Program-made: the position numbers and the translations under genes
In this document: positions 34,644 to 55,868 of the stretch, one piece after another
Position numbering within the stretch: the stretch's first letter is position 1
How the letters are laid out: the number at the start of each line of letters is the position of its first letter
The notes under the pieces: generated by a model
What the model was told of the DNA's origin: nothing
Database searches by the model: none
Seen by the model: the letters and a program-made list of their open reading frames with translations, nothing else
Assembly (NCBI GenBank): GCA_902521465.1
Contig: CABYRL010000002.1
Coordinates: 1 to 58,776, forward strand
From: an uncultured Alphaproteobacteria bacterium
GTDB lineage: Bacteria > Pseudomonadota > Alphaproteobacteria > HIMB59
DNA length: 58,776 nucleotides
Direction: 5' to 3'

Positions 34644-34723
34644 ATTATGGATTTTAAGGCTTCAACCTTGTTGTCTTATGCCCTATATTACTTCTACTAT
34701 TATAATAGATATAGGAGGAGTAA

Positions 34724-35665: not shown

Positions 35666-35677
35666 TATAATATTTTT

Positions 35678-35707
35678 AAAATCCTCCCTTAAATGGGAGG
35701 ATTTTAC
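35678..35707 (+). terminator. Hairpin between binding-protein and ATPase genes
   Basis: Perfect 11-bp inverted repeat AAAATCCTCCC / GGGAGGATTTT at 35678-35688 and 35695-35705 around a 6-base loop, followed by a T-rich run. It is the strongest hairpin seen in the window and lies inside an operon. It probably acts as a partial terminator or a 3' stabiliser, giving more binding protein than ATPase and permease. Confidence 0.8.
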
Positions 35708-35735
35708 TTTTAATTTTTTTTGATAGGTTAATCTT

Positions 35736-38820: not shown

Positions 38821-41172
38821 ATGATCATCCCAAGAGTTACTCAACCTTATGAACCTGGATTACCAGCTCTTGGTGACGACTTAGAAAATTATTTGGTAAC
38901 TGGCGGAGGCTCTCTCACATTAAAATTAGAACCAGATGATAAATTTAAAATAATTAATTTAGAAGGCCATCAACAGGCTGAGGTTGTATGCTTTAATTCA
39001 AAAGGAGAATGTAATCTATCAGCATTAGGTCTTGATAACGAACACGACGGTCAATTTACAAAAAAAATCCTTACGAGCGAAGAGGAGTCAGCTCAAATAG
39101 CACGCACTAAATTAAAAAAACTTGGATATGAGGTAGAGTCTATTAATCAATCGATTTTAGTATTTTCTAAAAATTCACTTTCAGGTTCAATTGAGGAGTT
39201 TAAAACAAACGACTCCATTGTTTGTATAATTTCTGCACCAGGCGAAAGTGAAATTACACATGAAAATATTCCTGCATCCGAACTACGAGTGATTGTTCAA
39301 AGAAATAAAAAACGTGAAGAGGGGGAATTTTTATTACCAGACCCTTTAATGGACCCTGTTGAAGAAATTTTTGTTAAAAGATATACCGCAATGGCCTATG
39401 AGGTCAAAGAAGGAGATTTTATTCAGATAATTGATGTTTATGGAAGACAATGTTCTGACTTTATGGCTTTCGACTCAGAGAGTCTTCAAAAAGGCCAAGA
39501 GCTCTCAATAGATACAACTAATAGTAGATATCTAATGGGAAGTGCTTTTCCAATGCCAGGTCTCCATTCTAAATATTACGATGAAAATCAAATGCCCATG
39601 GTTGAAGTCTACAGAGACACTGTCGGAAGACATGATACGTTCGGTACTGCATGTACTTCAAAATTTTATGATGATATTGGTTATTTTGGTCATCCAAATT
39701 GCTCTGATAATTTCAATTATGTATTAGATAAGTTTACTGTGAGAAAAAGACTAGGTTGGAATGCTATAAATTTATTTTACAACACAGCCATTGATGCAAA
39801 TAATGCTTTAATTTTTGATGAACCATGGTCTAGACCAGGAGACTATGTGATGTTTAAAGCTCTGAAAAATTTAGTTTGTGTCTCCTCTGCCTGTCCAGAC
39901 GATGTAGATGCAGCTAATGGATGGAATCCTACTGACATTTTTGTTAGAGTCTATAGACCGAATAGACCTTTTAGTAAAGGAATGGCATTTAGAATGAAAG
40001 CAGACTCTGAACCTAAATTAACTAAAGAAACTGGTTTTCACCCAAGAGTTTCAAAACTTACTGAAAATATTGTTGAGTACAAAGGCTTCTGGTTAGCTTC
40101 TAATTATAACAATCACGGGGCGCACCAAGAATATGAAGCTTGCAGAGAGAGGGCTATCATTATGGATCTATCAGCACTAAGAAAGTTTGAGGTAAGAGGC
40201 CCAGATGCTGAAGAACTTTTGCAAATGACTTGCACCAGAAACATCAGAAAACTATCTGTTGGCCAAGTTGTTTACACTGCGATGTGCTACGAGCATGGAG
40301 GTATGCTTGATGACGGTACAGTATTCAAAATGACGGATGATAATTTTAGGTGGATTTGTGGTGATGAGTATTGTGGCGAATGGTTAAGAGAAAAAGCAAA
40401 GGAACATAACTTAAAGGTATGGATTAAATCTTCTACTGATAATTTACATAATGTTTCTGTCCAAGGGCCAAAGAGTAGAGAAATATTAAAAAAGATAATC
40501 TGGACCCCACCTCATCAAACATCATTGACTGATTTAGAGTGGTTTAGGTTTTCTATAGCTAGGTTAAATACTTTAGATGGAATTCCTTTAATGGTTTCTA
40601 GAACTGGATATACAGGTGAACTAGGTTATGAAATATTCTGTCATCCGAGCAAAGCTGCTGAAGTTTGGGATGCTGTAATGAAAGCTGGAGAAGAGTTTGG
40701 AATTGTGCCTATGGGATTGGACGCTTTGGATTTAGTTAGAATTGAAGCTGGTTTAGTTTTTGCAAATTATGAATTTGATGATCAAACTGATCCGTTTGAG
40801 GCAGGAATTGGTTTTACAGTTCCTCTCAAATCAAAAGAAGATAACTTTATTGGTAAAGAAGCTTTACTTGAAAGAAAGGCAAACCCTCAAAGAAAACTAG
40901 TTGGACTCGAGCTTGAGGGTAATGAAACTACTGGGCATGGTGACTGTGTTCATCCTTCAAATAATGGAAGGGAACAAGTTGGCATTATAACAAGTGGTAT
41001 GAAATCCCCTGTTCTAAATAAAAATATTGCTCTTTGTAAAATAAATGTCAAATACAGCGAGCTTAATACTGAAGTTGAAATAGGTAAGTTAGATGGTCAA
41101 CAAAAAAGAATAAAGGCTAAGGTTGTACCTTTCCCATTTTATGATCCAACTAAATCAAGAGTTAAATCCTAA
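38821..41172 (+). CDS. tdm: Trimethylamine N-oxide demethylase
   Basis: A 783-residue two-domain enzyme converting TMAO to dimethylamine and formaldehyde. Residues ~1-380 are DUF1989 domains: GRQCSDFMAFD, HDTFGTACTSKFYDD, FGHPNCSDNF and VSSACPDDVDAANGWNPTD. Cysteines C278, C294 and C358 are spaced 16 and 64 apart, the same as the three-cysteine zinc motif I recall for Methylocella Tdm. Residues ~400-783 are GcvT folate-binding domains (VSVQGPKSREIL, SRTGYTGELGYEIF, DLVRIEAGLVFANYEFDD), which can catch the formaldehyde as methylene-THF. Directly linked to the transporter genes. Confidence 0.9.
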   Translation: MIIPRVTQPYEPGLPALGDDLENYLVTGGGSLTLKLEPDDKFKIINLEGHQQAEVVCFNSKGECNLSALGLDNEHDGQFTKKILTSEEESAQIARTKLKKLGYEVESINQSILVFSKNSLSGSIEEFKTNDSIVCIISAPGESEITHENIPASELRVIVQRNKKREEGEFLLPDPLMDPVEEIFVKRYTAMAYEVKEGDFIQIIDVYGRQCSDFMAFDSESLQKGQELSIDTTNSRYLMGSAFPMPGLHSKYYDENQMPMVEVYRDTVGRHDTFGTACTSKFYDDIGYFGHPNCSDNFNYVLDKFTVRKRLGWNAINLFYNTAIDANNALIFDEPWSRPGDYVMFKALKNLVCVSSACPDDVDAANGWNPTDIFVRVYRPNRPFSKGMAFRMKADSEPKLTKETGFHPRVSKLTENIVEYKGFWLASNYNNHGAHQEYEACRERAIIMDLSALRKFEVRGPDAEELLQMTCTRNIRKLSVGQVVYTAMCYEHGGMLDDGTVFKMTDDNFRWICGDEYCGEWLREKAKEHNLKVWIKSSTDNLHNVSVQGPKSREILKKIIWTPPHQTSLTDLEWFRFSIARLNTLDGIPLMVSRTGYTGELGYEIFCHPSKAAEVWDAVMKAGEEFGIVPMGLDALDLVRIEAGLVFANYEFDDQTDPFEAGIGFTVPLKSKEDNFIGKEALLERKANPQRKLVGLELEGNETTGHGDCVHPSNNGREQVGIITSGMKSPVLNKNIALCKINVKYSELNTEVEIGKLDGQQKRIKAKVVPFPFYDPTKSRVKS

Positions 41173-42535: not shown

Positions 42536-43870
42536 TTATTTTGTATCTAAATATGTAGCCATAGAGTCATCCATAGCATCCAACCATGTAGTATGATGTG
42601 AGGGACCAGTGGTGCCAGTGACAGGCGAGGAAAAGGATTTATCTCTATAAGTCAGGATATTTTCTTCCTTATGGTGTTCCCAATCATAAAAATGTTTGCG
42701 AATTAACTCAAAGTCAATTTTTGGGTAGTCAACAGCAGAACATAAATCCACACAATAATCTGTTTGAAAATCAATCATTTGATAGGCATCCTCTAGGGCC
42801 TCTTCCTTTTTAACCCAGTTATCAATATCCTTTGCTAACTCATCAGCTGAAGGCAGAGTTATTTTGTTCATTATTATGTCTCTAACATACCAAGCTTGGG
42901 CATCAAACATGTTAAAAGTATGAAACTGATCTTGCATACCAAGATAAAACAAATTTTGATTATTTTGCCATACTACTCCTTTGTATAAGTTTGGAGGATA
43001 TAGCCTGTTATGAGTTTTTAATTTTAGATCTTCTGGTAAAAAAGGAAAATGATGCAAGTAACCTGTACATAGTATTAAGGCATCCATTTCTTGAACTGTG
43101 CCATCTTTAAAAACTGCTTTATTTCCATCGATCTTATCCATGTAATGTACTTCTTTCATGCCTTCAGGCCAATTGAAACCCATTGGATTGTTTCTATAAC
43201 CAATAGTAACAGTTTTAGCTCCATATTTATGGCACTGTAACGCTACATCTTCAGCAGAGTAACTACTTCCGAGAACGACAACGTTTTTATCCCTAAACTC
43301 TTCAGCATCTCTGAAATCATGAGAGTGCATTATTCTCCCTGGGAAGCTATTCATTCCCTCATATTCAGGAATGTATGGAACAGAGAAGTGACCAGTCGCA
43401 ACAACTAATTTATCAAAACTTTCAGTCTTAGTTTGATCGTCTTTTTTATTTCGGTATGTAATGTCAAATCCATTACCATTATCAGCAACAGAGGTAACAG
43501 TGGTATTAAACTTTACGTATTTTTTTACATCTGAATTTTCTGCACGACCTAAAATGTAATCTTGTAGGACGGCTCTTGGAGGGAAGGAGGGAATTGGTTT
43601 TTTGAAATGCTCATCAAAAGAATAATCTGCAAATTCAAGACACTCTTTTGGTCCATTCGACCAGAGGTATCTATACATACTATTGTGAATTGGATCTCCG
43701 TATTGATCAGATCCGGTTCTCCAAGTATAATTCCAAAGACCACCCCAACTTTCTTGTTTTTCAAAGGCTACAACCTCAGGAATATTTTCGCCTTTGCTTT
43801 GCGCTTGATGCAGAGATCTTAAAAAAGATAGTCCACAGGGACCTGTACCAATTAGTGCAACTTTTGTCAT
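42536..43870 (-). CDS. tmm: Trimethylamine monooxygenase (flavin-containing)
   Basis: A 444-residue FMO that oxidises trimethylamine to TMAO. FAD motif ALIGTGPCGLSFLRSL, the stretch NSMYRYLWSNGPKECLEFADYSF which is diagnostic for bacterial Tmm, the FMO motif FPGRIMHSHDFRD, NADPH motif VVVLGSSYSAEDVALQ, and ILCTGYLHHFPF. A CTCCTCC complement gives a good ribosome site. It is divergent from mgdA across a 173-base region that carries an IclR-type palindrome. Many FMOs of this group also oxidise dimethylamine or dimethylsulfide. Confidence 0.95.
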   Translation of the reverse strand: MTKVALIGTGPCGLSFLRSLHQAQSKGENIPEVVAFEKQESWGGLWNYTWRTGSDQYGDPIHNSMYRYLWSNGPKECLEFADYSFDEHFKKPIPSFPPRAVLQDYILGRAENSDVKKYVKFNTTVTSVADNGNGFDITYRNKKDDQTKTESFDKLVVATGHFSVPYIPEYEGMNSFPGRIMHSHDFRDAEEFRDKNVVVLGSSYSAEDVALQCHKYGAKTVTIGYRNNPMGFNWPEGMKEVHYMDKIDGNKAVFKDGTVQEMDALILCTGYLHHFPFLPEDLKLKTHNRLYPPNLYKGVVWQNNQNLFYLGMQDQFHTFNMFDAQAWYVRDIIMNKITLPSADELAKDIDNWVKKEEALEDAYQMIDFQTDYCVDLCSAVDYPKIDFELIRKHFYDWEHHKEENILTYRDKSFSSPVTGTTGPSHHTTWLDAMDDSMATYLDTK

Positions 43871-43968: not shown

Positions 43969-43987
43969 TGTTTCATATTATGGAACA
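43969..43987 (+). promoter_or_regulatory. IclR-type operator in the tmm/mgdA divergent region
   Basis: TGTTTCATATTATGGAACA: arms match in eight of nine positions around one central base. The same 19-bp pattern occurs before the iclR gene and before the oxidase-ligase operon. It lies 57 bases before the mgdA ATG and about 100 bases before the tmm start, so it could serve both directions. Confidence 0.72.
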
Positions 43988-44043
43988 GGTTTATTGTAGC
44001 ATTATATTAGGAATATATATTTTCGAAGAGGTTTAATTGAATC

Positions 44044-45300
44044 ATGCAAAAGTACTCAGTTTTTAGTTTAGTAAAAAATGCTTTCACCAACCATGAAAAT
44101 TGGGAGGTAGCTTGGAAAGACCCTGAGCCTAAAAAAGAATACGATGTCATAATTGTAGGCGGCGGTGGTCATGGTCTTGCAACAGCTTATTATCTTGCAA
44201 AAGAACATGGCATCACAAACGTTGCCATACTTGAAAAAGGTTGGATTGGTGGAGGTAATGTTGGAAGAAACACTACCATCTTGAGATCTAACTATATGTT
44301 TGATTCAAACGCTCATTTTTATGAGTTTGGCATGAAGCTTTGGGAAACACTTAGCCAAGAATTAAATTACAACGTTATGTATTCACCGAGAGGAATTATA
44401 AACCTAGCTCACTCTGATGCACAAATGAACGCTTACGCTAGAAGAGGTAACTCTATGAGATTAAATGGTATTGATGCAATTCTTCTTGGAAGGGATGATT
44501 TAAAAAAGATGATCCCATTTGCAGATTTTTCAGAAACATGTCGTTTTCCTATTCATGGTGGTTTAATGCAACCACGTGGAGGAACTGCAAGACATGATGC
44601 AGTTGCTTGGGGATACGCGAGACAGGCAGACTCTATGGGTGTCGATATAATTCAAAATTGTGAAGTGACAGGTTTTGATGTTAACAACGGAAAAATAGAA
44701 GGCGTTCAAACATCAAGAGGAAATATTAAAACTAAAAAAGTTGGATTGTGTGTTGCTGGAAGCACTACACTTTTAGCAGACATGTTAAATATGAGACTTC
44801 CAATTGAAGCACATGTTCTGCAAGCTTGTGTCTCAGAACCAGTTAAACCTTTACTTCATAACGTAGTTACATTCGGAGCAGGTCACTTTTATTGTAGTCA
44901 ATCTGACAAAGGTGAAATGGTTATGGGTGGTGATTTAGATGGTTACAACAGCTATGCTCAAAGAGGAAATATGCCAATGATACAGCATGTTTTAACAGGT
45001 GGATTGGCTGTCTTCCCAAACTTTAGTAGACTCAAAATGCTTCGAACTTGGGGAGGTATTATGGATATGTCCATGGATGGTTCTCCAATAATCGATAAAA
45101 CTCATATTGAGGGTTTATATCTTAATTGCGGTTGGTGTTACGGTGGCTTTAAAGCTACTCCCAGCTCAGGTTTTGTTTTTGCGCATACAATAGCACAAGA
45201 TCAAGTACATGAACTCAACTCAGACTTTAACCTTGAAAGATTCCATACTGGAAAAATTATAGATGAAAAGGGTGTAGGCCCTAAACCTTGGATCGGTTAA
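44044..45300 (+). CDS. mgdA: N-methylglutamate dehydrogenase / heterotetrameric sarcosine oxidase, beta-type subunit
   Basis: A 418-residue flavin subunit of the SoxB family. The segment DVIIVGGGGHGLATAYYLAKEHGI binds FAD, and GGLMQPRGGTARHDAVAWGYARQAD contains the His that covalently carries FMN in sarcosine oxidase. SoxBDAG and MgdABCD complexes are homologous. I prefer N-methylglutamate dehydrogenase because the operon runs straight into mgsABC, but sarcosine (from the betaine route) is also produced in this cell and cannot be excluded. First gene of the operon, downstream of the IclR palindrome. Confidence 0.82.
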   Translation: MQKYSVFSLVKNAFTNHENWEVAWKDPEPKKEYDVIIVGGGGHGLATAYYLAKEHGITNVAILEKGWIGGGNVGRNTTILRSNYMFDSNAHFYEFGMKLWETLSQELNYNVMYSPRGIINLAHSDAQMNAYARRGNSMRLNGIDAILLGRDDLKKMIPFADFSETCRFPIHGGLMQPRGGTARHDAVAWGYARQADSMGVDIIQNCEVTGFDVNNGKIEGVQTSRGNIKTKKVGLCVAGSTTLLADMLNMRLPIEAHVLQACVSEPVKPLLHNVVTFGAGHFYCSQSDKGEMVMGGDLDGYNSYAQRGNMPMIQHVLTGGLAVFPNFSRLKMLRTWGGIMDMSMDGSPIIDKTHIEGLYLNCGWCYGGFKATPSSGFVFAHTIAQDQVHELNSDFNLERFHTGKIIDEKGVGPKPWIG

Positions 45301-45303
45301 TAG

Positions 45304-45576
45304 ATGTTAGAAATAAAATGCCCATACTGTGGCAAGCGCTCACAAAATGAATTTTCTTATGGCGGAGACGCCACTATAAAAAGACCTCAACTAGGAGAAG
45401 AAATTTCAACCGAGGATTGGGATAATTTTGTTTACTACAGAGATAACCCAAGAGGAAAACATTCAGAACTATGGCATCATGTTTCTGGATGTAGACAATG
45501 GTTTAAAGTCTCAAGAGACACCGCTACACATGAAATTTTTGATACTTGTAAAATGAACGAGGACTTTAATGTCTAA
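45304..45576 (+). CDS. mgdB: N-methylglutamate dehydrogenase / sarcosine oxidase, delta-type subunit
   Basis: A 90-residue zinc-binding subunit. The ligands are visible as C6 and C9 in KCPYCGKR and H59 and C63 in WHHVSGCRQW, the Cys3His site of SoxD. RDNPRGKHSELW is also conserved. It sits three bases after the beta-type gene and overlaps the alpha-type gene by eight bases. Structural role in the tetramer. Confidence 0.88.
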   Translation: MLEIKCPYCGKRSQNEFSYGGDATIKRPQLGEEISTEDWDNFVYYRDNPRGKHSELWHHVSGCRQWFKVSRDTATHEIFDTCKMNEDFNV

Positions 45577-48568
45577 CAGTTTTAGAACAACCAACTCAAC
45601 AGGACTTATTAATAAGGATAAAAAAATTAATTTTACTTTTAACGGCACTATTTATCATGGCTATGAAGGAGACACTCTTGCATCTGCTTTAATTGCAAAT
45701 GGTGTTCATTTAGTTGGAAGAAGTTTTAAGTATCATCGACCTCGCGGTTTTTTAGGAGTTGGTGTTGAAGAACCAAATGCAATGGTACAATTGCATGATG
45801 GTAATAAATCTGAACCTAATATCATTGCAACCGAAGTTGAGTTAGTTGAGGGATTAAAAGCTAAAAGTCAAAATTGTTGGCCTTCTGTTCAATTTGATAT
45901 TGGAGAAATCAATAATGTCTTAAATCGTTTTTTTCCTGCAGGTTTCTATTACAAAACATTTATGTGGCCAAAAAGTTTTTGGATGAAAATCTATGAACCA
46001 TTTATAAGAAAAGCTGCTGGTATGGGTAAAGCACCACTGCTACCTGACCCAGATAGGTACGAACATAATTATGAACACTGCGATGTACTAGTTGTTGGCT
46101 CTGGCCCATCAGGTCTCGCAAGTGCTCTGGCTGCTGCTAAAAATGGGGCTAGGGTAATATTAGCAGAAGACAAGCCTAATTTTGGTGGCTCTCTTTTAAC
46201 TGACGAAGTTACGATTGGTAACATGTCAGGAAAAGAGTGGGCTAGTGATACCATTTCCCAATTAAAAAGTATGCCAAATGTAATATTAAAAAAAAGGTCA
46301 CAAGTCTTCGGATACTATGATCACAATATGACCGTAATGATTGAAAGAGTTAGCGATCATATTGAAAATCCCTCAAAATACACACCAAGACAAAGACTAC
46401 ATTATATTAGAGCTGGAGAAGTAATAGTTTCAACTGGTTCTATTGAAAGACCAATATCTTTTGGAAACAATGATAGACCAGGAATTGTATTAGCCTCAGC
46501 AGCAAAAGAGTATATGAAGGTTTATGAAACATTAGTTGGTAAGAAACCAATTATATTTACCAATAATGATACAGCATATTCTACTGCCCTTGAGTTTATT
46601 AAAAATGATATTGAACCAATCATTGTAGACACTCGAGACAGCTCAAATGGTGAATTAGTCAAAGAAGTTCAGCAAAAGGGTATTTCTATAAAATTTAATT
46701 CAGGGATCGCAGACACTAAAGGACATTTGAAGATAAATTCTGCTATCATCGGCAAGCTTGACTCTTCAAAAGAGTCTTTTATTTCAGAAGAAACAGTAGA
46801 GTGTGATTGCATTTGTATGTCAGGAGGCTGGACACCAACGGTTCATTTATCTTCCCAAGCTGGAAATAAATTAAAGTTTAACGACGATATTGATGCGTTC
46901 GTGCCGGATAAAAAAAGACAAAAAGAAACAGCAATTGGAGCAGCTAATGGTTCTTTCACCTTAAATCAATCCCTAGCTGAAGGTTTTCAAGTGGGCTTTG
47001 ATTTATCAAACAAATTCACAGATCAAAATAATCCTACAAATAGTCCCAACTCAAATGAACCTAGCTATGAAAAACATGAAAAGCTCTGGTGTATGCCTTT
47101 ACCATCTGGAAAAAAACCAAAACGCTTTATCGACTTTCAAAATGACGTTGCAGTTTCTGATGTAGAGCTAGCAATTAGAGAAGGCTTCAGATCAATTGAG
47201 CACGTCAAAAGATATACAACTCTTGGGATGGCTGGCGATCAAGGCAAGACAAGTAATTTAAATGGTTTGCAATATGTATCTAAAATAGAAAAAAAGATTG
47301 TTCCAGAAGTTGGTCATACAACATTTAGACCACCATACACCCCTGTAACAATTGGAGCTATCGTGGGTAGAGAAGTTGGTAATCACTATTTACCAACAAG
47401 AAAATCTCCCATTCATACATGGCATGAGGAAAATAATGCTGTTTTTGTAGCAGCAGGTTTATGGCAAAGACCCAGATACTACCCAATGGGTTCTGAGGAT
47501 ATGAACAGTGCTGTTAATAGGGAAGCTGCAAATGTAAGAAAAAATGTTGGAATTTGTGATGTTACGACACTTGGTAAGATTGATATTAAAGGTCCGGATG
47601 CACCAGAATTCTTAAATAGAGTTTATACAAATGCATGGCTGAAATTACCTGTTGGAAAAGCTAGATATGGAGTAATGCTAAGGGAAGATGGCATGGTTTT
47701 TGATGATGGAACAACATCTCGATTATCTGAAAATCATTTTCATATGACTACCACTACTGCCCAAGCTGCAAATGTTTTATCGCACTTAGAGTATTATTTA
47801 CAAGTTGTATGGCCAGATTTAGATGTAAATGTCTTATCAACTACTGAACAGTGGTCTGGTATAGCAGTGGCAGGTCCAAAATCTAGAGATCTTTTATCAA
47901 AATTATTTCCTGATGTAGATATGTCAAATGAGGGTTTACCATTCATGGGTCTTGTTGACTCTTCAATAGACGGTATCAAAGCTAGAATTTATAGAATTTC
48001 TTTTTCTGGTGAACTAGCTTATGAGGTAAATGTCGAGTCAAACTATGGTCTTTATACGTGGAAGAAGATCATGGAAGTAGGACAGTCATTTGATATTCAA
48101 CCATACGGAACAGAGGCTCTATCAACCTTAAGAATAGAAATGGGTCATGTCGCAGGAGCAGAATTAGACGGACGCACTATTCCTTTTGATGTTGGACTGA
48201 ATAGTATGGTGAGTCAGAAAAAAGATTTTATAGGTAAAAGATCTTTATCTAAAGACGCATTCACTGAGTCGGATAGACAAACTATTGTTGGACTTGTTCC
48301 ACTAGACAAAAAAACAAAGATCCCAGAGGGTTCACATATTATAGAAGATAATAGTGCTGTTGCCCCAATACCTAAACTTGGACATGTTTCATCTTCTTGT
48401 TGGAGTGTTGAATATAATAATCCTTTTTCCATAGCCATTATAAAAGATGGTAAAAATAAAATTGGTAAAAATCTATATGCTGTCTCTCCTTTAAAAGATA
48501 TTTCAATTCCTGTTGAGGTAGTATCCTCACACTATGTTGATCCCGAAGGCTCAAGGGTGAGATCATAA
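45569..48568 (+). CDS. mgdC: N-methylglutamate dehydrogenase / sarcosine oxidase, alpha-type subunit
   Basis: A 999-residue subunit with three parts: an N-terminal ferredoxin-like domain without cluster cysteines (FNGTIYHGYEGDTLASALIANGVHLVGRSFKYHRPRGF), an NAD-binding domain with DVLVVGSGPSGLASALAAAKNGARVILAED (from about residue 172), and a C-terminal GcvT folate domain (about 600-990; SFSGELAYEVNV, LRIEMGHVAGAELDGRTIPFDVGL). In the tetramer it accepts the one-carbon unit on tetrahydrofolate. Full length compared with SoxA. Its last base overlaps the next ATG. Confidence 0.88.
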   Translation: MSNSFRTTNSTGLINKDKKINFTFNGTIYHGYEGDTLASALIANGVHLVGRSFKYHRPRGFLGVGVEEPNAMVQLHDGNKSEPNIIATEVELVEGLKAKSQNCWPSVQFDIGEINNVLNRFFPAGFYYKTFMWPKSFWMKIYEPFIRKAAGMGKAPLLPDPDRYEHNYEHCDVLVVGSGPSGLASALAAAKNGARVILAEDKPNFGGSLLTDEVTIGNMSGKEWASDTISQLKSMPNVILKKRSQVFGYYDHNMTVMIERVSDHIENPSKYTPRQRLHYIRAGEVIVSTGSIERPISFGNNDRPGIVLASAAKEYMKVYETLVGKKPIIFTNNDTAYSTALEFIKNDIEPIIVDTRDSSNGELVKEVQQKGISIKFNSGIADTKGHLKINSAIIGKLDSSKESFISEETVECDCICMSGGWTPTVHLSSQAGNKLKFNDDIDAFVPDKKRQKETAIGAANGSFTLNQSLAEGFQVGFDLSNKFTDQNNPTNSPNSNEPSYEKHEKLWCMPLPSGKKPKRFIDFQNDVAVSDVELAIREGFRSIEHVKRYTTLGMAGDQGKTSNLNGLQYVSKIEKKIVPEVGHTTFRPPYTPVTIGAIVGREVGNHYLPTRKSPIHTWHEENNAVFVAAGLWQRPRYYPMGSEDMNSAVNREAANVRKNVGICDVTTLGKIDIKGPDAPEFLNRVYTNAWLKLPVGKARYGVMLREDGMVFDDGTTSRLSENHFHMTTTTAQAANVLSHLEYYLQVVWPDLDVNVLSTTEQWSGIAVAGPKSRDLLSKLFPDVDMSNEGLPFMGLVDSSIDGIKARIYRISFSGELAYEVNVESNYGLYTWKKIMEVGQSFDIQPYGTEALSTLRIEMGHVAGAELDGRTIPFDVGLNSMVSQKKDFIGKRSLSKDAFTESDRQTIVGLVPLDKKTKIPEGSHIIEDNSAVAPIPKLGHVSSSCWSVEYNNPFSIAIIKDGKNKIGKNLYAVSPLKDISIPVEVVSSHYVDPEGSRVRS

Positions 48569-49164
48569 TGGAACAAGCACAAAATCTATCACCACTTCAT
48601 TTTGATCATAAGCTCGGCTTGTTTGGCGACCATGAGAATAAAGAAAACCTATTAAAAATATCGGAAATAAAAGATCTTAGTATTATCCAAATTGCTAAAT
48701 TTAAGAAAAGCTCAATTGAGATTGAAAAAGTTACTATAAATCAACTTAATTTACCGACAGAAAGTTTAAAAGTTTCTCACAATCAAGAGACAAGAGTATT
48801 GTGGACCGGTCCTGATACCTGGTTAATTATCTCAAAAAAAATTGACTTGAAAGACGAAATTTACAAATCGATCAGAGATGAGGATTTTGCCATTACAGAT
48901 ATTTCACAATCAAGAGCTGTATTACAAATATCAGGCGTAAATGCAAAAAATGTTTTAAAAAAAGGTTCTCCAATAAATTTTAATGAAAATATGTTTAAAC
49001 CAAATAATTGCGCGAACACTACATATAACGGAATTAACATACTGATCGACTATTTAGACGACCAACCGTTTTGTTTTAACCTTTATGCATTAAGAAGCTT
49101 TGGTGGTTCTTTTTACCATAGCATTACTGACTCGTCATTAGAGTATGGGTATGAGGGTATTTAA
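48568..49164 (+). CDS. mgdD: N-methylglutamate dehydrogenase / sarcosine oxidase, gamma-type subunit
   Basis: A 198-residue SoxG-like subunit with a degenerate GcvT fold: SPLHFDHKLGLFGDH at the start, VLWTGPDTWLIIS, ITDISQSRAVLQISGVNAKNVLKKGSPINF and a C-terminal LYALRSFGGSFYHSI. It begins by overlapping the alpha-type stop, closing the four-subunit B-D-A-G order. mgsA follows after five bases. Confidence 0.85.
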   Translation: MEQAQNLSPLHFDHKLGLFGDHENKENLLKISEIKDLSIIQIAKFKKSSIEIEKVTINQLNLPTESLKVSHNQETRVLWTGPDTWLIISKKIDLKDEIYKSIRDEDFAITDISQSRAVLQISGVNAKNVLKKGSPINFNENMFKPNNCANTTYNGINILIDYLDDQPFCFNLYALRSFGGSFYHSITDSSLEYGYEGI

Positions 49165-49169
49165 TATTA

Positions 49170-50051
49170 ATGTGCGGTATAGTTGGAATATATTTAAAAA
49201 ATAAAAAATATAATTCACAATTAGGTAAATTTCTTACTGGAATGATGAATAGTATGGCTACGCGTGGTCCTGATAGTGCAGGTTTCGCAATATACTCATC
49301 TGAGAAAAAAAAAAAATATAAATATTCAGTTTGCTCTAATACTTATCAAGTTAAAGAAATTTCAAAAAAACTATCAAAGCAAGTAAAAGATATCAAAGTA
49401 AAATCTATTTCAGATCATTTAATAATTGAAACAGTAATGAAGCCTAAAAAGTTTATAGAAATTTTAAAAAATCATGATGAATTAAGTTTAGTTGGATATG
49501 GTAGTTGCATAGAAATATTTAAACAAGTGGGAAATCCGAAGGATGTTGTTAAAAATTTTTCACTAGAGAAGTTTTCTGGCTCACATGCTATTGGGCATAC
49601 AAGGATGGCAACAGAAAGTGCAATCACGACAGATGGCTCTCATCCATATTCCACAGGTGAGGATGAATGTCTTGTACATAACGGATCCTTGTCAAATCAT
49701 AACAACTTAAGAAGATCGCTTCAGAAAAAAGGGATTGAAATAAAGTCCATGAATGATACGGAAGTCGCTGCAGGTTATATTTCAAACGGATTATCTGACA
49801 AAAAATCACTCAAAGAAACACTTTTGGATGGACTGAAGGACCTCGATGGTTTTTACACATTTATTTCTGGAACCAAAAATGGCATGGCAATTGTTAGAGA
49901 TGAGATTGCTTGTAAGCCCGCAGTTGTTGCAGAAACAAAGGATTATGTTGCTATTGCCTCAGAGTTTCAAGCAATGGCACATTTACCAAATGTAAATTCA
50001 GCAAAAATTTTTGAACCAGAGCCCGGAAAAGTATATAGCTGGGGCAAATAA
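49170..50051 (+). CDS. mgsA: N-methylglutamate synthase subunit A (class II amidotransferase domain), copy 1
   Basis: A 293-residue Ntn-type glutaminase domain resembling the N-terminal part of glutamate synthase (GlxB family). The nucleophile is C2 in MCGIVGIY; RGPDSAGF, GHTRMATESAITTDGSHPY and VHNGSLSNHNNLRR are the glutamine-site motifs. In N-methylglutamate synthase this subunit handles the gamma-glutamyl compound. Overlaps mgsB by one base. The second copy at 55869 keeps the same motifs but has an extra 20 residues. Confidence 0.85.
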   Translation: MCGIVGIYLKNKKYNSQLGKFLTGMMNSMATRGPDSAGFAIYSSEKKKKYKYSVCSNTYQVKEISKKLSKQVKDIKVKSISDHLIIETVMKPKKFIEILKNHDELSLVGYGSCIEIFKQVGNPKDVVKNFSLEKFSGSHAIGHTRMATESAITTDGSHPYSTGEDECLVHNGSLSNHNNLRRSLQKKGIEIKSMNDTEVAAGYISNGLSDKKSLKETLLDGLKDLDGFYTFISGTKNGMAIVRDEIACKPAVVAETKDYVAIASEFQAMAHLPNVNSAKIFEPEPGKVYSWGK

Positions 50052-50734
50052 TGAATTTAAATTTAAAAAAAGAGTCATTGAGGAAAGTTAATGAAACTCT
50101 TCAAAGTATAGATAGAAAATCAAACAAAAAGATTTTTAAAGTTTCAAATCCAGATGGAAATCACGCTATTTGTGCTGGATTAAAAGACGAGATTGAAGTC
50201 ACTATTGATGGTCACACAGGATACTATTGTGCTGGTATGAACATGAATGCAAATATCATTGTAAATGGAAATGTGGGCACAGGTGTTGCAGAAAATATGA
50301 TGTCTGGAACTGTTCATGTTAAGGGCAATGCATCCCAATCAGCCGGTGCTACAGCACATGGTGGAACTTTGATCATTGATGGTGATACTAGTTCACGTTG
50401 TGGGATTTCAATGAAAGGAATAGATATTATAGTTAAAGGATCGGTAGGCCATATGTCTGCATTTATGGCTCAATCTGGAAATTTGGTTATATGTGGAGAT
50501 GCTGGAGACGCTCTGGGAGACAGTATCTATGAAGCAAATATTTTTATTAAGGGTAAGGTGAAATCACTTGGTGCTGACTGCGAAGAGAAAAAAATGAATA
50601 AAAAAGATCAAAATATTTTGAGATCTCTTTTAAAAAAAGCAAGTATAAATGAAAGTGAGATTAAAAACTTCAAAATGTATGGTTCAGCAAGAAAACTCTA
50701 TAATTTTAATATAGATAATGTATCGGAGTACTAA
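50051..50734 (+). CDS. mgsB: N-methylglutamate synthase subunit B (glutamate synthase domain 3-like), copy 1
   Basis: A 227-residue right-handed beta-helix protein like the C-terminal GXGXG domain of glutamate synthase. Repeating turns are visible (VNGNVGTGVAENMMSGTVHVKGNAS, GTLIIDGDTSSRCGISMKGIDIIVKGSVG, GNLVICGDAGDALGDSIYEANIFIKG). About 50 residues shorter than the second copy. Structural subunit, no catalytic residues expected. Overlaps mgsC by one base. Confidence 0.87.
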   Translation: MNLNLKKESLRKVNETLQSIDRKSNKKIFKVSNPDGNHAICAGLKDEIEVTIDGHTGYYCAGMNMNANIIVNGNVGTGVAENMMSGTVHVKGNASQSAGATAHGGTLIIDGDTSSRCGISMKGIDIIVKGSVGHMSAFMAQSGNLVICGDAGDALGDSIYEANIFIKGKVKSLGADCEEKKMNKKDQNILRSLLKKASINESEIKNFKMYGSARKLYNFNIDNVSEY

Positions 50735-52053
50735 TGGCAGAAAAATTTAAAACTACACCAAGAAAATCTTGGACATTTGATGACTATACAAACTCTGAAA
50801 TTCGAAGAGCTGCAGAAACAGGTATTTATGACATTAGAGGCGGTGGTTCAAAAAAAAGATTACCTCATTTTGACGATCTTCTTTTTTTAGGCGCATCAAT
50901 GTCAAGATACCCTTTAGAGGGCTACAGAGAAAAGTGTAGCACTAACGTCACTCTTGGAACAAGATTTGCAAAAAAACCGCTTGAATTAGATATTCCAATA
51001 ACAATTGCTGGAATGAGCTTTGGAGCTCTCTCAGGACCTGCAAAAGAAGCGCTTGGAAGAGGAGCTAGTATTGCCGGGACTTCAACGACAACAGGCGATG
51101 GTGGCATGACCCCTGAGGAGAGAGGACAATCAAAGCATTTGGTTTACCAATTACTTCCCTCAAGGTATGGAATGAACCCAGAGGATTTAAGAAAAGCAGA
51201 TGCTATTGAAGTTGTGATAGGTCAAGGTGCCAAACCTGGCGGTGGAGGTATGTTACTCGGTCAAAAGATAAGTGATCGTGTTGCCGAGATGAGAACATTA
51301 CCAAAAGGAATTGATCAGAGATCAGCATGTAGACATCCAGATTGGACTGGACCAGATGATTTGGAAATAAAAATTTTAGAACTCAGGGAAATAACAGCTT
51401 GGAAAGTTCCCATATTTGTAAAAATTGCAGGATCTAGGCCTTACTACGATACTGCTCTTGCAGTAAAAGCAGGTGCTGATGTGGTGGTGCTTGATGGCAT
51501 GCAAGGAGGTACTGCAGCTACACAAGAGGTATTTATCGAAAATGTAGGTCAGCCAACATTGGCATGTATCAGGCCAGCAGTAGATGCTTTATTAGACTTA
51601 GATATGCACAGGAAGGTTCAGTTAATTATTTCAGGTGGAATTAGAAATGGTGCGGATGTTGCAAAAGCTATGGCATTGGGTGCTGATGCTGTTTCCATAG
51701 GTTCATCAGCATTAATTGCACTGGGTGATAATGATCCAAAGTGGGAGAGCGATTACAAAAAACTTGGAACAACAGCTGGTGCTTTCGATGATTGGCATGA
51801 AGGTAAAGACCCATCTGGTATAAATACACAAGACCCAAAATTAATGAAAAGATTAGACCCAGTAAAAGGCGGAAAAAGATTATCTAATTATCTCAAGGTT
51901 ATGACTCTTGAAGCCCAAACTATAGCGAGGGCATGTGGTAAAAACGATTTACATAATCTTGAACCTGAGGACCTATGTGCATTAACAGTTGAAGCTGCTG
52001 CAATGGCTAGGGTTCCTTTAGCGGGAACCGGTTGGGTGCCTGGTAAGATTTAA
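50734..52053 (+). CDS. mgsC: N-methylglutamate synthase subunit C (FMN glutamate synthase domain), copy 1, Fe-S cysteines missing
   Basis: A 439-residue FMN barrel. SFGALSGPAKEALGRGASIAGTSTTTGDGGM, HPDWTGPDDLEIKI, VVLDGMQGGTAATQEVF and ISGGIRNGADVAKAMALGADAVSIG are standard glutamate synthase elements. In glutamate synthases a cysteine triad (CHTxxCPVG) follows and binds a 3Fe-4S cluster; here the aligned stretch is GAFDDWHEGKDPSGINTQDP, so all three cysteines are gone while the flanking NTQDP is kept. This subunit should therefore lack the cluster, unlike copy 2 at 57634. Ends the mgd-mgs operon. Confidence 0.88.
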   Translation: MAEKFKTTPRKSWTFDDYTNSEIRRAAETGIYDIRGGGSKKRLPHFDDLLFLGASMSRYPLEGYREKCSTNVTLGTRFAKKPLELDIPITIAGMSFGALSGPAKEALGRGASIAGTSTTTGDGGMTPEERGQSKHLVYQLLPSRYGMNPEDLRKADAIEVVIGQGAKPGGGGMLLGQKISDRVAEMRTLPKGIDQRSACRHPDWTGPDDLEIKILELREITAWKVPIFVKIAGSRPYYDTALAVKAGADVVVLDGMQGGTAATQEVFIENVGQPTLACIRPAVDALLDLDMHRKVQLIISGGIRNGADVAKAMALGADAVSIGSSALIALGDNDPKWESDYKKLGTTAGAFDDWHEGKDPSGINTQDPKLMKRLDPVKGGKRLSNYLKVMTLEAQTIARACGKNDLHNLEPEDLCALTVEAAAMARVPLAGTGWVPGKI

Positions 52054-52060
52054 CCATTAT

Positions 52061-52088
52061 TTGCTAATTACTTAAACTATACTATAAT
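52061..52088 (+). promoter_or_regulatory. Putative promoter of the IclR gene
   Basis: TTGCTA at 52061-52066 and TATAAT at 52083-52088, 16-bp spacer. The IclR-type palindrome begins at the last base of the -10 box, so a bound regulator would cover the start site. This arrangement is the standard one for autorepression. Confidence 0.5.
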
Positions 52089-52106
52089 GTTTCATTCTGT
52101 GGAACA
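52088..52106 (+). promoter_or_regulatory. IclR-type operator at the iclR promoter
   Basis: TGTTTCATTCTGTGGAACA. Seven of nine arm positions pair; the motif is the same as the copies at 43969 and 52934. It overlaps the expected transcription start of the IclR gene, suggesting autoregulation. Confidence 0.7.
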
Positions 52107-52123
52107 TTGGTTGGAGGACAGTT

Positions 52124-52894
52124 TTGCAACAAGATTTAAAATATATAAATAAGTCTCTGGAAAAATCTTTCAAAATTCTTGAAATTTTATCAAAATCAAT
52201 TTTCCCGTTGAAGGCATCAAATATTTCTAGAAAAGCAGTTTTATCTAGAACAACTACATTTAGACTATTGTCTGTTTTATCTCAACTTGGTTATATCCAT
52301 AAAAATACTGGATCAAATACATACACTATGGGTCATAAAGCTTTTCAATTTGGAGAAACCTCAGATTATCTTCAGTCAATTTCTGAGACTTCTAAAGAAA
52401 TTCTAAAAGAGGTCTCTAGTAAAACGAATTTAATTACATATTTGGCAATGCTTGAAGGCTCTCAAATAGTTCATTCCGATAAAATCTCTGACAACAATGA
52501 TGATGCAACTATTAGAACTTTTAGAATGAGACTTGACGCTCATTGTTGTGCTTTAGGAAAAGTCATGCTTGCGTACAGACCTGAAAATGAAATTGCAACG
52601 ATTTATAGAAGTTATAATTTTTATCCTCACACAAACAATACAATTACAAATTTAAATGATTTAAAAAGACAACTTGGCAAAATTAGAACTAACGGTTATG
52701 CGCTTAATCATGGAGAAGCTTTTGAAAACTCTTATGGAATAGGAGTCGCTATTTTAGACAAAGATAAAAGATCATTTGCAGGAATCGCTCTATCAGGTAG
52801 TAAAAATATCTTAAACCCAAAAACTATGATGGATTATGTTGATCTCCTTCAATCTGCCTCGATTAAAATTTCTCGATTAATTGTTGCCAATTGA
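52124..52894 (+). CDS. IclR-family transcriptional regulator
   Basis: A 256-residue regulator. Residues about 8-65 form the winged helix (KSFKILEILSK... ASNISRKAVLSRTTTFRLLSVLSQLGYI), and residues 75-250 the IclR effector domain with VHSDKIS, LDAHCCALGKVMLAY (the conserved CxALGKxxLA helix) and NHGEAFENSYGIGVAI. The start is TTG with GGAGGAC just upstream. It stands between the mgd-mgsABC operon and the oxidase-ligase-mgsABC2 operon, and three matching palindromes are nearby, so it is the probable local regulator. The effector may be an amine or gamma-glutamyl compound. Confidence 0.85.
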   Translation: MQQDLKYINKSLEKSFKILEILSKSIFPLKASNISRKAVLSRTTTFRLLSVLSQLGYIHKNTGSNTYTMGHKAFQFGETSDYLQSISETSKEILKEVSSKTNLITYLAMLEGSQIVHSDKISDNNDDATIRTFRMRLDAHCCALGKVMLAYRPENEIATIYRSYNFYPHTNNTITNLNDLKRQLGKIRTNGYALNHGEAFENSYGIGVAILDKDKRSFAGIALSGSKNILNPKTMMDYVDLLQSASIKISRLIVAN

Positions 52895-52930
52895 AGATTA
52901 TTGTTGATAAATAATAGATTTTTGTAAAAA

Positions 52931-52955
52931 TTTTGTTTCATAATATGAAACAAAA
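52931..52955 (+). promoter_or_regulatory. Perfect 25-bp palindrome, IclR-type operator before the oxidase-ligase operon
   Basis: Arms TTTTGTTTCATA (52931-52942) and TATGAAACAAAA (52944-52955) with a single central base; every position pairs. Its 19-bp core is the best example of the motif found at 43969 and 52088. It lies 57 bases before the ATG at 53012, the same distance as the first copy from mgdA. Confidence 0.78.
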
Positions 52956-53011
52956 TGTGTTTTTTTCATACCTCGCAGACAAAATATAGTTGCTTGGAGG
53001 TTACTAAAATA

Positions 53012-54358
53012 ATGAGCTTACCTACTAAATGTGACTATTTAATAATCGGGGCTGGAATTCACGGCCTGAGCACTGCATGGCATCTTTGTAAAAAATTATC
53101 CAATAAGGGCCAACTCAAAGAAAATTCTGTAGTCGTTTTGGAAAAATCCAAAGTTGCAAATGGAGCAAGTGGTGTTGCATGTGGAATTGTAAGGAACAAC
53201 TACTACCAGCCTGCAATGAGAAGGCTAATGGCTCATTCTGTAAATGTTTGGAATGAGAATGCTGAGGCTTTAACTTACAAGCCAGTTGGCTACATGCAGA
53301 TCAACTCCGAGCTAATGCAAGAAGGCATGTCTGAAGTTTATGAGCAGCAAAAAGAAATAGGATTTGACTCCGAGTTTATCGAAGGAGCATCAGATTGTGA
53401 TAAGTATATGAAAGACATGTTGCCAGATTGGCAAGCTCAAGGCATCACTTCAGTTTTACACGAAAAGAAAACAGGATATGGAGCTAATAGAGGAGCCATA
53501 GAGGGCTTTCATAAGTTAGCAGTATCGGCTGGAGCAAAAGTTTTAGAAGGTGTGACTGTTAACAATTTAATTTCTTCTAATGGTAGCGGAGCAGTTTCGG
53601 CTGTAGAAACATCAGAGGGTAAAATTGAATGCACTCAATTAGTTGTTGCGGCTGGTCCATGGGTAAGAAAATTCTGGGAAATTTTAGAATTACCTAACAC
53701 CGTTAAAATAAAAAAACCTGATGGTTCATTTACTGATGATATACCTATGTGGTCATACATGGCACTTGAAGAGGGTGAGTTGGAAGTTGACCCAAGAAGT
53801 TATAAAACAGCAAACGGAACAGAGTACCCAGTTATTCATGTTGATACAGAAGCCACACTTGTCTCAAATAAAACAGGTGATGTTATACATGAAAATGTTA
53901 TGTGGGGTTTTTACTATAAGCCCGATGTCTACAGAGATGGTATACAAGGTGGTTCCTCTCCATATGACATAAATAAACCTGTTAACGATATAAGTCTTGA
54001 TCCTTATGGTCATGACTCAGATGAGTTTCAACCAAGAGCTTCTTTTGAGGATAAATGGACCTCAGCTTTGGCTTTTTGCCAAAAGCAATTTGATGGATGT
54101 CACGCTAAATACAAGAAGCAAAAAGCTGGCGGTATTGGCTGTGTTACTCCAGATCGTTTTCCTGTATTCGACCAATACAGAGAAAACGTATATATTATAG
54201 CTGATGCTAACCATGGATACAAAATGGCTGGGTTAGGAGATCTTGTATCTAATGAGTTACTTGGTGAGAAATCTGAAATTCTAGAACCTTTTAGATTTTC
54301 TCGTTATGAAGAAGGGAAGTTACATCCGGTTTCAAAGAGCCCGTTCCCTTGGAGTTGA
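53012..54358 (+). CDS. FAD-dependent amine oxidase (DAO / sarcosine oxidase beta-like)
   Basis: About 448 residues from the ATG at 53012, which has GGAGG 11 bases upstream. The longer frame from 52955 would start inside the palindrome. The FAD motif is DYLIIGAGIHGLSTAWHL; further DAO features are ANGASGVACGIVRNNYYQPAMRRL and the C-terminal ADANHGYKMAGLG. Residues 210-345 carry an insertion-rich substrate region (ALEEGELEVDPRSYK, VMWGFYYKPDVYRDG). No GcvT domain is attached. It is the first gene of the operon with a gamma-glutamyl ligase and a second mgsABC, so its substrate is probably an N-alkyl amino acid or a gamma-glutamyl amine; which one is not known. Confidence 0.78.
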   Translation: MSLPTKCDYLIIGAGIHGLSTAWHLCKKLSNKGQLKENSVVVLEKSKVANGASGVACGIVRNNYYQPAMRRLMAHSVNVWNENAEALTYKPVGYMQINSELMQEGMSEVYEQQKEIGFDSEFIEGASDCDKYMKDMLPDWQAQGITSVLHEKKTGYGANRGAIEGFHKLAVSAGAKVLEGVTVNNLISSNGSGAVSAVETSEGKIECTQLVVAAGPWVRKFWEILELPNTVKIKKPDGSFTDDIPMWSYMALEEGELEVDPRSYKTANGTEYPVIHVDTEATLVSNKTGDVIHENVMWGFYYKPDVYRDGIQGGSSPYDINKPVNDISLDPYGHDSDEFQPRASFEDKWTSALAFCQKQFDGCHAKYKKQKAGGIGCVTPDRFPVFDQYRENVYIIADANHGYKMAGLGDLVSNELLGEKSEILEPFRFSRYEEGKLHPVSKSPFPWS

Positions 54359-54379: not shown

Positions 54380-55849
54380 ATGACAGCGCTAGAAACGTAC
54401 GTTAAGGATAAAAAGAGACAAGACTATATAAAACAAGTTAGAAAAAAAATTGATAAATTAGGAATTGAGTACATTTATTATCAATTTATTTCTGTTACAG
54501 GTAGAATTGTAGGTAAAGGTGTTCCTGCAGATCATTGGGAGAGTGTAGCTAATAAAGGTTTCCAATTAGTTTATGGAGCTACTGCTAATCTATTTACAAA
54601 TAGACATGGTGATTACATAGGTTATGGACCAGAGGCCCACGAATTAGTGGGTATACCTGATCCAGAAACATTTGTTCAAATTCCTTGGGATAAAAGAATT
54701 GCCAGAGTTTTTTGTACTTGTTTTAGAAACAGGGAAGAAGAAAAAGATCCTGGTGGATATCTTACATCTGATTGCAGAGGTAACTTAAAAAGAGCCCACG
54801 AAGAATTTAAAAAGAAACACAAACTAGAATTACGAGCAGGGACAGAACCTGAAATGATGTGGTTAACAAAAAACGAAGATGGTTCACCGACTGGTTCAGG
54901 TTTCTCTAAACCCTACTGCTATCACATTGATCAATTTGAATCATTAAGACCTGTTTACATGAAAGTAATTGAGTATTCACGCGCAATGGGTTTGGACATT
55001 ATCCAAGGTGACCATGAGGACGCGCCTGGACAATTAGAACTAAATTTCAACTACGATGATGTTGTTAGAAACGCTGACAGGTTATCAACTTACAGACAAA
55101 TCTGTGCTCAAGTAGCAAGAGAATTTAATTTGATTGCTTGTTTTCTGAGTAAACCATTTGTTGGCGTGTCTGCTTCTGGTTGTCACACAAATATTTCACT
55201 CTGGAAGGGCGGAAAAGATGAATTAATACCATGTGGTAACAAGACTATCCCAGGTATGGAAAATGTATTTCATCACCGTAGGGGAGGTACAAATGTCTTT
55301 ATGCCAGACGGGAAAGATAGAAGAATTCCTGGAAAAATAGGCCTTCAAGCAATCGGCGGTGTCATGGAACACCTTCCTGCTTTAACAGCCTTGGGTTCCT
55401 CAACTGTGAATTCATATAGAAGACTTTGGGATACAGGTTTTTGGGCTCCAGTTTATGCGGACTGGGGATATCAAAACAGAACCTGTGGTTTAAGGGTATC
55501 TGCCCCTGGTAGATTTGAATATCGATCAGTTGATTCAGCCCACAACCCATACTTAATGGGAAGCGGTCTGTTGAAAGCATTCGACCATGGTATTTCAAAG
55601 AAAATGGATCCAGGTAAACCTGAACAACAAAATATGTATGAACAAATGAAAGCTGGTAAGCAAGTTGAAAAATTACCAATGACTCTTGGTGAGGCATTAG
55701 ATCGATTAGAAACCGACAAGGTAATACAAGATGCTCTACCAGGTGACATGATGAAAGTGTTTATGGAGTATAAAAGAGATGAGTGGGAAGAATTTTTAGC
55801 AACTCCGACTCAATGGGATCTCGATAAATACCTAGATTGCTTACCATAA
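54380..55849 (+). CDS. Glutamine synthetase-family gamma-glutamyl-amine ligase, divergent (GmaS-like)
   Basis: A 489-residue GS-fold enzyme. Active-site elements: GTEPEMMWL, GDHEDAPGQLELNFNYD, GVSASGCHTNISLWKGG, and GRFEYRSVDSAHNPYL (RxExR). It lacks the FxxYTDLFG-type start of the usual gamma-glutamylmethylamide synthetase and is about 50 residues longer than that group. It is not a housekeeping GlnA either (no adenylylation tyrosine region, no DxFxD start). Position between an amine oxidase and mgsABC2 points to ATP-dependent gamma-glutamylation of an amine; methylamine is the default guess. AAGGAGGAGG gives a very strong ribosome site. Confidence 0.72.
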   Translation: MTALETYVKDKKRQDYIKQVRKKIDKLGIEYIYYQFISVTGRIVGKGVPADHWESVANKGFQLVYGATANLFTNRHGDYIGYGPEAHELVGIPDPETFVQIPWDKRIARVFCTCFRNREEEKDPGGYLTSDCRGNLKRAHEEFKKKHKLELRAGTEPEMMWLTKNEDGSPTGSGFSKPYCYHIDQFESLRPVYMKVIEYSRAMGLDIIQGDHEDAPGQLELNFNYDDVVRNADRLSTYRQICAQVAREFNLIACFLSKPFVGVSASGCHTNISLWKGGKDELIPCGNKTIPGMENVFHHRRGGTNVFMPDGKDRRIPGKIGLQAIGGVMEHLPALTALGSSTVNSYRRLWDTGFWAPVYADWGYQNRTCGLRVSAPGRFEYRSVDSAHNPYLMGSGLLKAFDHGISKKMDPGKPEQQNMYEQMKAGKQVEKLPMTLGEALDRLETDKVIQDALPGDMMKVFMEYKRDEWEEFLATPTQWDLDKYLDCLP

Positions 55850-55868
55850 GATAAGATAGGAGAAAAGT

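Follow-up and report, generated by a model that had tools for sequence, protein, structure and literature searches.

A palindromic operator at methylated-amine operons of a HIMB59 alphaproteobacterium and the IclR-family regulator that very likely reads it

Does a single regulator govern the operons for methylated-amine catabolism that lie close together in an uncultured alphaproteobacterium of the HIMB59 lineage? The stretch that raises this question, contig CABYRL010000002.1 of assembly GCA_902521465.1 (positions 1 to 58,776; "the window" hereafter means this whole stretch of 58,776 nucleotides, nt), carries genes for trimethylamine monooxygenase (tmm), trimethylamine N-oxide (TMAO) demethylase (tdm), N-methylglutamate dehydrogenase and synthase (mgd/mgs) and an IclR-family regulator. 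An initial annotation had noted three copies of a 19-base-pair (bp) palindrome among them, and proposed that the IclR protein controls trimethylamine oxidation, the N-methylglutamate genes and a second amine operon, with autorepression. Our analysis points to a new regulon under a regulator whose family is well known. The IclR protein of the window very likely reads the palindrome, whether it activates or represses, and on balance we expect that this single protein activates methylated-amine transport and catabolism and limits its own synthesis. The proposal of one common regulator is supported, and the regulon appears wider than had been stated: it would also take in a dimethylformamidase-like operon, an operon for a flotillin-associated rhodopsin (FArhodopsin) and flotillin and, more weakly, a TMAO-transporter-like operon. 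We infer binding, effector and direction of control from sequence; the features concerned are collected in Table 1.

The three palindromes stand where they had been placed and with the sequences given. The pattern TGTTTCATNNNNTGRAACA has only these three matches in the window, and none in 100 dinucleotide shuffles. Details of the earlier description need revision: the perfect palindrome at the third site, given as 25 bp, has an odd centre at about 52943 and mismatches that begin at distance 14, making it 27 bp long, and the two copies said to lie exactly 57 bases before their ATG codons end 56 nt (mgdA) and 59 nt (the ATG at 53012) before them. The statement that there is no further copy holds for full copies in the window; a half-degenerate copy with three mismatches (34636-34654) precedes the TMAO-transporter-like gene, and elsewhere the genome adds an exact copy at C3:29817 and a near copy at C3:23619. 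Since a scan of the window that allowed three mismatches returned 26 matches, against 9.8 expected by chance, such loose matches carry little weight alone. The degenerate site has a shuffle P of 0.037 in the window (300 shuffles per site, here and below), and the orthologous promoter in the sister family has fuller palindromes. Six sites agree at 15-17 of 17 positions with the consensus for IclR group-1 operators, GTTYCRYW3RYGRAAC, that is set out in passages of PMC8222616.

Across the whole genome, ten places lie within two mismatches of TGTTTCATNNNATGRAACA. Five are intergenic, namely the three window sites and the promoters of the dimethylformamidase-like and FArhodopsin operons, and the other five lie inside open reading frames (ORFs). 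Many copies at unrelated genes, which the initial annotation had named as an observation that would speak against a regulon, were not seen, all copies outside the regulon being those inside ORFs. We rejected these five as chance copies, together with 11 of the 16 strict matches in the sister family (below), since they all lie inside ORFs, unlike the regulon sites. A separate 7-5-7 scan of 142,781 of the genome's 1,341,546 bases, partly chosen for holding hits, gave an extra intergenic palindrome with two mismatches (TATTCCAAATATTGGAAAA) at L008:8791.

The additional exact copy stands 40 nt before the gene (dmfA1) of a protein of 142 amino acids (aa). The next gene encodes a 784-aa protein that matches PF20254 (307 bits) and the large subunit of N,N-dimethylformamidase (PDB 6lvb, E 2.5e-193). 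Since an acylase of the same family, 8huy, matches as well (E 2e-134), we call the 784-aa protein dimethylformamidase-like. Searches of Pfam, NCBIfam and PDB gave no match for the 142-aa protein, which fits the small subunit by position and size only. The near copy, TATTTCAAAATATGAAACA, stands 57 nt before the rhodopsin gene on contig C3. Both operons, each with an operator before it, occupy C3:23619-32658 (genome G000; locus L005:3619-12658), and the gene content of this locus is that of the flotillin-associated rhodopsin (FAR) cluster reported for HIMB59.

The candidate reader of these sites has an HTH_IclR domain (PF09339, 37.9 bits) and an IclR_C domain (PF01614, 102.1 bits), each above cut-off, and its best PDB match is 1mkm (E 2.8e-27). 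A search of the whole genome (assembly 91.76% complete) found no second IclR_C protein. Among the NCBIfam IclR subfamilies (PcaR/PcaU/PobR, BhcR, KdgR, IclR, AllR) none scores above its curated cut-off, the best being PcaR/PcaU at 114 bits against a cut-off of 285. Across 20 aligned proteins, R42, T44, F46 and R47 (numbering of the window protein), which lie in the recognition-helix region, do not vary. We regard the window protein as the very likely reader of the motif because the sites match the group-1 consensus, because it is the sole IclR_C protein, and because iclR and the palindromes are jointly absent from one relative, described below. When 385 genomes sampled evenly across the class were searched for this IclR, three gave a match, all of the window's genus (E 1e-45), so that our comparisons stay within the order.

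Absence of the motif from these promoters in relatives had been named as a second observation that would count against a regulon; the palindrome is instead kept at the same promoters. In the genus counts for mgdA, the oxidase gene and iclR that follow, duplicate upstream regions and loci without the gene start were excluded. A palindrome with at most one mismatch lies 55-59 nt from the ATG in 20 of 20 distinct mgdA upstreams, and one with at most two mismatches precedes the oxidase gene in all 24 distinct upstreams, at 53-62 nt in 22 of them; the upstreams in L096 and L105 have two copies each, the best at 100 nt. At iclR it is found in 33 of 36 distinct upstreams (at most three mismatches), 2-21 nt from the start, even in upstreams with quite different surroundings. 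For orthologs of dmfA1 (79-100% identity) the palindrome lies at a distance of exactly 40 nt in 19 of 19 distinct upstreams, with 1-4 mismatches; five more distant homologs lack it. The FArhodopsin site is present with at most two mismatches in 14 of 15 upstreams, including that of L215, one of two sister-family loci in the set. The TMAO-transporter-like gene keeps the left half-site, TGTTYCA, at 68-70 nt in 23 distinct upstreams, with the right half mostly degenerate, and three divergent members of the genus (L188-L190) have no left half-site at this position. In representative lineages aligned in the same register, identity to the reference is 80-96% in the operator arms and 48-63% in the flanks.

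Conservation extends to the sister family, in which IclR is 43-47% identical to the window protein and the cluster is recognisable by its tmoX, tmm, tdm, iclR, oxidase, gmaS-like and mgs-like genes. A palindrome of the TGTTTCAnnnnnTGAAACA type lies between iclR and the oxidase gene in 12 of the 12 loci fetched; those in L113 and L114 are variants, with shuffle P 0.003 and 0/300 (seven of the 12 loci were given the shuffle test). Eleven loci extend into the divergent region between tmm and the transporter gene, and 10 of them hold a site within three mismatches there; tmm thus keeps a palindrome upstream with either divergent partner, mgdA in the genus or, in the sister family, the transporter gene. 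The strict pattern TGTTYCATNNNWTGRAACA has 16 places in 14 of 110 sister-family genomes, and by placement against mechanical ORFs five of the 16 are intergenic, all between iclR and the oxidase gene; a control pattern read backwards has no match in 162 genomes of the order. Presence of tmm and presence of iclR are also linked across the 110 genomes: 20 have both genes, three have tmm without iclR, three have iclR without tmm and 84 have neither (Fisher P 6e-16; a hand count, with different E cut-offs for the two genes).

The three genomes with tmm alone are G122, whose contig breaks off within tdm and does not reach the iclR position, G158, in which tmm is cut by a contig end, and G161. The last, at 93% completeness, carries tmm, tdm, oxidase and ligase genes, and has no iclR between oxidase and tdm and no IclR_C protein anywhere in the genome; at the tmm, tdm, oxidase and ligase promoters there is no palindrome, the best matches having five mismatches. 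The simplest reading would be a loss of both iclR and its palindromes. Since this methylamine cluster (contig C6, L217) is without iclR and palindromes, it must be controlled in another way.

How the regulator would act is suggested by the distance from palindrome to promoter. Averaged over five promoters with 6-10 lineages each, the score for a -10-like hexamer peaks 28-30 nt beyond the palindrome end, at 4.06 of 6 against an all-window mean of 2.88 (rotation P 0.004), and the best single offset is 29 nt at mgdA and dmfA1, 30 nt at the transporter gene, 32 nt at FArhodopsin and 33 nt at the oxidase gene. This spacing of about 28-33 nt is a trend, not a rule. With hexamers so placed, transcription would start roughly 40-60 bp downstream of the palindrome, which gives the palindrome an activator-like position. 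At dmfA1 (L005:9817-9876 and orthologs) the -10-like hexamer about 29 nt beyond the palindrome and the ATG 41 nt beyond it keep their spacing in 19 distinct genus upstreams, a geometry which predicts that dmfA1 is transcribed with little or no leader.

We therefore favour a model, conditional as it is, in which IclR binds the palindrome TGTTYCAnnnnnTGRAACA as a dedicated regulator of methylated amines. Its targets would be the mgdA, oxidase-ligase, dimethylformamidase-like, FArhodopsin and probably TMAO-transporter-like operons, at which the palindrome lies just upstream of the putative promoter; a dimer at this position, altered by a methylated amine or its catabolite, would most likely help RNA polymerase to initiate. 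The tmm gene is probably controlled too, through the palindrome that it has in common with its divergent neighbour. At iclR itself the candidate -10 hexamer meets the first base of the palindrome, which extends over the inferred start; bound there, the protein would block its own synthesis. The autorepression proposed earlier is in keeping with the operator position found throughout most of the genus; the sister-family iclR promoter is without a site, and autoregulation is consequently not general.

Several observations weigh against this model, in whole or in part. Many of the genus genomes are near-identical, so that the genus counts are not independent. The spacing is inconstant at tmm and at the sister-family transporter gene, and the hexamer of the sister-family oxidase gene lies mostly at about +24. 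Besides the sister-family iclR promoters, none of which carries a palindrome, the site is missing or moved at the iclR promoter in three of the 36 genus upstreams (L099, L100, L108), in which start codons are uncertain, and L114 is without the tmm/transporter site (shuffle P 0.87 and 0.29). The transporter site has weak shuffle support in several places (0.037 in the window, 0.020 in L137, 0.043 in L138) and fails in L186 (0.29). The FArhodopsin site is degraded in L214 of the sister family (shuffle P 0.30); a sixteenth FAR locus, L212, has no site within three mismatches before FArhodopsin and a degenerate dmfA1 operator (shuffle P 0.063). Finally, and as a possible counter-example, IclR was not found in 11 of 52 genus genomes, although a motif copy is present in 52 of 52. 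Eight of the 11 are also without tmm (G021, G026, G035, G037, G041, G046, G047, G050); G016 has the beginning of iclR, 35 residues, at the very end of a contig, and a contig end truncates tmm in both G017 and G032. Wherever a check was possible, the lack of iclR in genus genomes is explained by contig ends or missing regions.

Of the other explanations, the one that survives best has the same IclR protein at the same operator acting as a plain repressor everywhere, the unliganded protein blocking the promoters until an amine or catabolite releases it. The palindrome that covers the inferred iclR start would suit this, and the spacing at the other promoters is no more than a trend; the five other palindromes nevertheless tend to end about 28-33 nt 5' of a -10-like hexamer, upstream of the -35 region, and a site there is unusual for simple repression. 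We consider general repression unlikely on these grounds, if still worth keeping in mind. It is quite improbable that another regulator reads the palindromes and that the IclR gene is a mere neighbour. That possibility draws on Ruegeria pomeroyi, which according to passages of PMC13390433 runs the same pathway with an AraC-type (TmaR) and a GntR-type (TmoR) regulator, and on a gene at 1329-1988 of the window that looks GntR-like by eye, though it is 41 kb from tmm. It is at odds with the match of the motif to the IclR group-1 consensus, the motif's position on the iclR promoter, the joint absence of iclR and palindromes from G161, and the confinement of the strict sister-family copies outside ORFs (5 of 16) to the space between iclR and the oxidase gene. 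That the palindromes act in RNA, as terminator or attenuator hairpins, and are no protein sites at all is most improbable, and we rejected it as the main explanation. They do fold as A+T-rich hairpins (-1.5 to -10.2 kcal/mol), and a T-rich stretch lies behind the copy downstream of iclR; this copy could double as a terminator of the iclR transcript. The FArhodopsin copy, however, barely folds (-1.5) and yet is conserved as a DNA palindrome, -10-like hexamers tend to lie downstream at the target promoters, which would leave the palindrome outside transcripts that begin there, and the sequence itself is conserved, not pairing alone.

With activation by IclR as the preferred reading, the FArhodopsin link is the part that would surprise a specialist. 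Passages of PMC10308929 describe for HIMB59 a FAR cluster with a DNI-type rhodopsin beside flotillin, plus a sodium symporter and an N,N-dimethylformamidase, a gene set that the C3 locus shares; FAR clusters are also known from SAR11 and Pseudothioglobus. That paper, in the part concerned, places the FAR-cluster amidase in glyoxylate and dicarboxylate metabolism; in the present genome the methylamine operator stands at two of the cluster's promoters, and a term search of the paper's main text returned no occurrence of "methylamine" or "IclR". The evidence leaves us evenly divided on whether the FAR cluster is a module for uptake and cleavage of methylated amines, probably dimethylamides, with IclR co-activating both of its promoters together with trimethylamine catabolism. 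If it is, the amidase would supply dimethylamine to the main pathway. The shared operator before the FArhodopsin and dimethylformamidase-like promoters offers a concrete, testable idea of what the FAR cluster does. Our literature search of an open library found no paper describing a dimethylformamidase with a regulator and operator.

Table 1. Operators, candidate promoter elements and genes of the window, with the basis of each assignment.
Feature	Position	Strand	Basis or remark
Operator TGTTTCATATTATGGAACA between tmm and mgdA	43969..43987	none	Pattern scan; conservation of mgdA upstreams
Operator TGTTTCATTCTGTGGAACA at iclR promoter	52088..52106	none	17 nt before TTG start
Operator before oxidase-ligase operon	52930..52956	none	27-bp perfect palindrome containing the 19-mer 52934-52952
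Degenerate operator TGTTTCATATTATGGATTT	34636..34654	none	69 nt before TMAO-transporter-like gene; 3 mismatches
Candidate -10 hexamer TATATT, mgd operon	44016..44021	+	29 nt beyond operator end; inferred from sequence
Candidate -10 hexamer TATAAT, iclR	52083..52088	+	Overlaps first base of operator; read by eye
Candidate -10 region, oxidase-ligase operon	52980..52990	+	CAAAAT at +28 or better-scoring TATAGT at +33; inferred
Candidate -10 hexamer TATATT, TMAO-transporter-like operon	34684..34689	+	30 nt beyond operator end; inferred
IclR-family regulator gene	52124..52894	+	PF01614 and PF09339; single IclR_C match in genome
tmm, trimethylamine monooxygenase	42536..43870	-	NF058570 equivalog, 738 bits, cut-off 675
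mgdA, N-methylglutamate dehydrogenase subunit; soxB subfamily	44044..45300	+	TIGR01373 above cut-off; gene name from context
Remaining mgd/mgs operon	45569..52053	+	ORFs; putative gene names, from context
FAD-dependent (DAO-fold) oxidoreductase, first gene of second amine operon	53012..54358	+	PF01266
gmaS-like glutamine-synthetase-family ligase and second mgs-like genes	54380..57634	+	PF00120; gmaS/mgs names from context
TMAO-transporter-like ABC genes (substrate-binding protein, ATPase, permease)	34724..38817	+	PF04069 for first gene
tdm, trimethylamine N-oxide demethylase	38821..41172	+	NF053776 equivalog, 1162 bits, cut-off 1100

Some assignments in Table 1 need comment. The first gene of the mgd/mgs operon is mgdA; the ATPase and permease of the transporter were assigned from ORFs, with tmo names from context, and the gmaS-like ligase scores under the cut-off of the GS III model. 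Two mgs-like gene sets are present, one behind mgd (49170-52053) and one behind the gmaS-like ligase (55869-57634), and the same type of operator precedes both. Just before the ribosome site of the transporter-like gene, at 34697-34708, stands CTATTATAATAG, which recurs in most genus upstreams. The neighbours of the GntR-like gene, distant from the amine cluster, are transporter, oxalyl-CoA decarboxylase-like and CoA-transferase-like genes. In other genomes, the permease and symporter genes of L212 (G007 C1:235501-246500) match only in pieces, which together with the operators of this locus may reflect sequencing errors or decay, and G010 (C1:89868-90272, L201) encodes between its transporter and tmm genes a distant protein like the dimethylformamidase small subunit (35% identity), with no palindrome upstream.

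The AEGEAN-169/HIMB59 group makes up as much as 6% of the South Pacific Gyre community according to the abstract of PMC11366302, and genomes of the SAR11 type are described, in a part of PMC10308909, as poor in regulators. A term search of the main text of two HIMB59 papers returned no occurrence of methylamine, TMAO or IclR. The remark in the initial annotation that no IclR regulator had been described for Tmm agrees with our search of the open library, which found none for this pathway; the IclR gene in PMC6514802, a paper that the search did return, adjoins carnitine genes.

In its general plan the regulon resembles those of other IclR group-1 regulators, with HTH_IclR and IclR_C domains, a consensus operator, and sites at the regulator's own gene and at adjacent operons, an arrangement that passages of PMC8222616 give as general for the family. 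It differs from the known group-1 regulons in content, the words "methylamine" and "sarcosine" being absent from the main text of that paper. The closest functional parallel is found in R. pomeroyi DSS-3, in which, as passages of PMC13390433 report, TmaR (AraC) and TmoR (GntR) regulate methylamine use. There too tmm, tdm and the gmaS/mgs/mgd operons are methylamine-induced and answer to one master regulator; the term "IclR" has no occurrence in that 2026 paper on methylamine regulation, and the window protein, with domains of the IclR type and neither AraC nor GntR, is not of the TmaR/TmoR type. Unlike the TmaR/TmoR system, the one proposed here would work through an IclR-family protein and one palindromic operator, with targets that include the dimethylformamidase-like and FArhodopsin operons. 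If this is true, a pathway important to marine nitrogen would gain a new regulator, a dedicated and conserved trimethylamine switch that is distinct from the AraC/GntR pair of Ruegeria.

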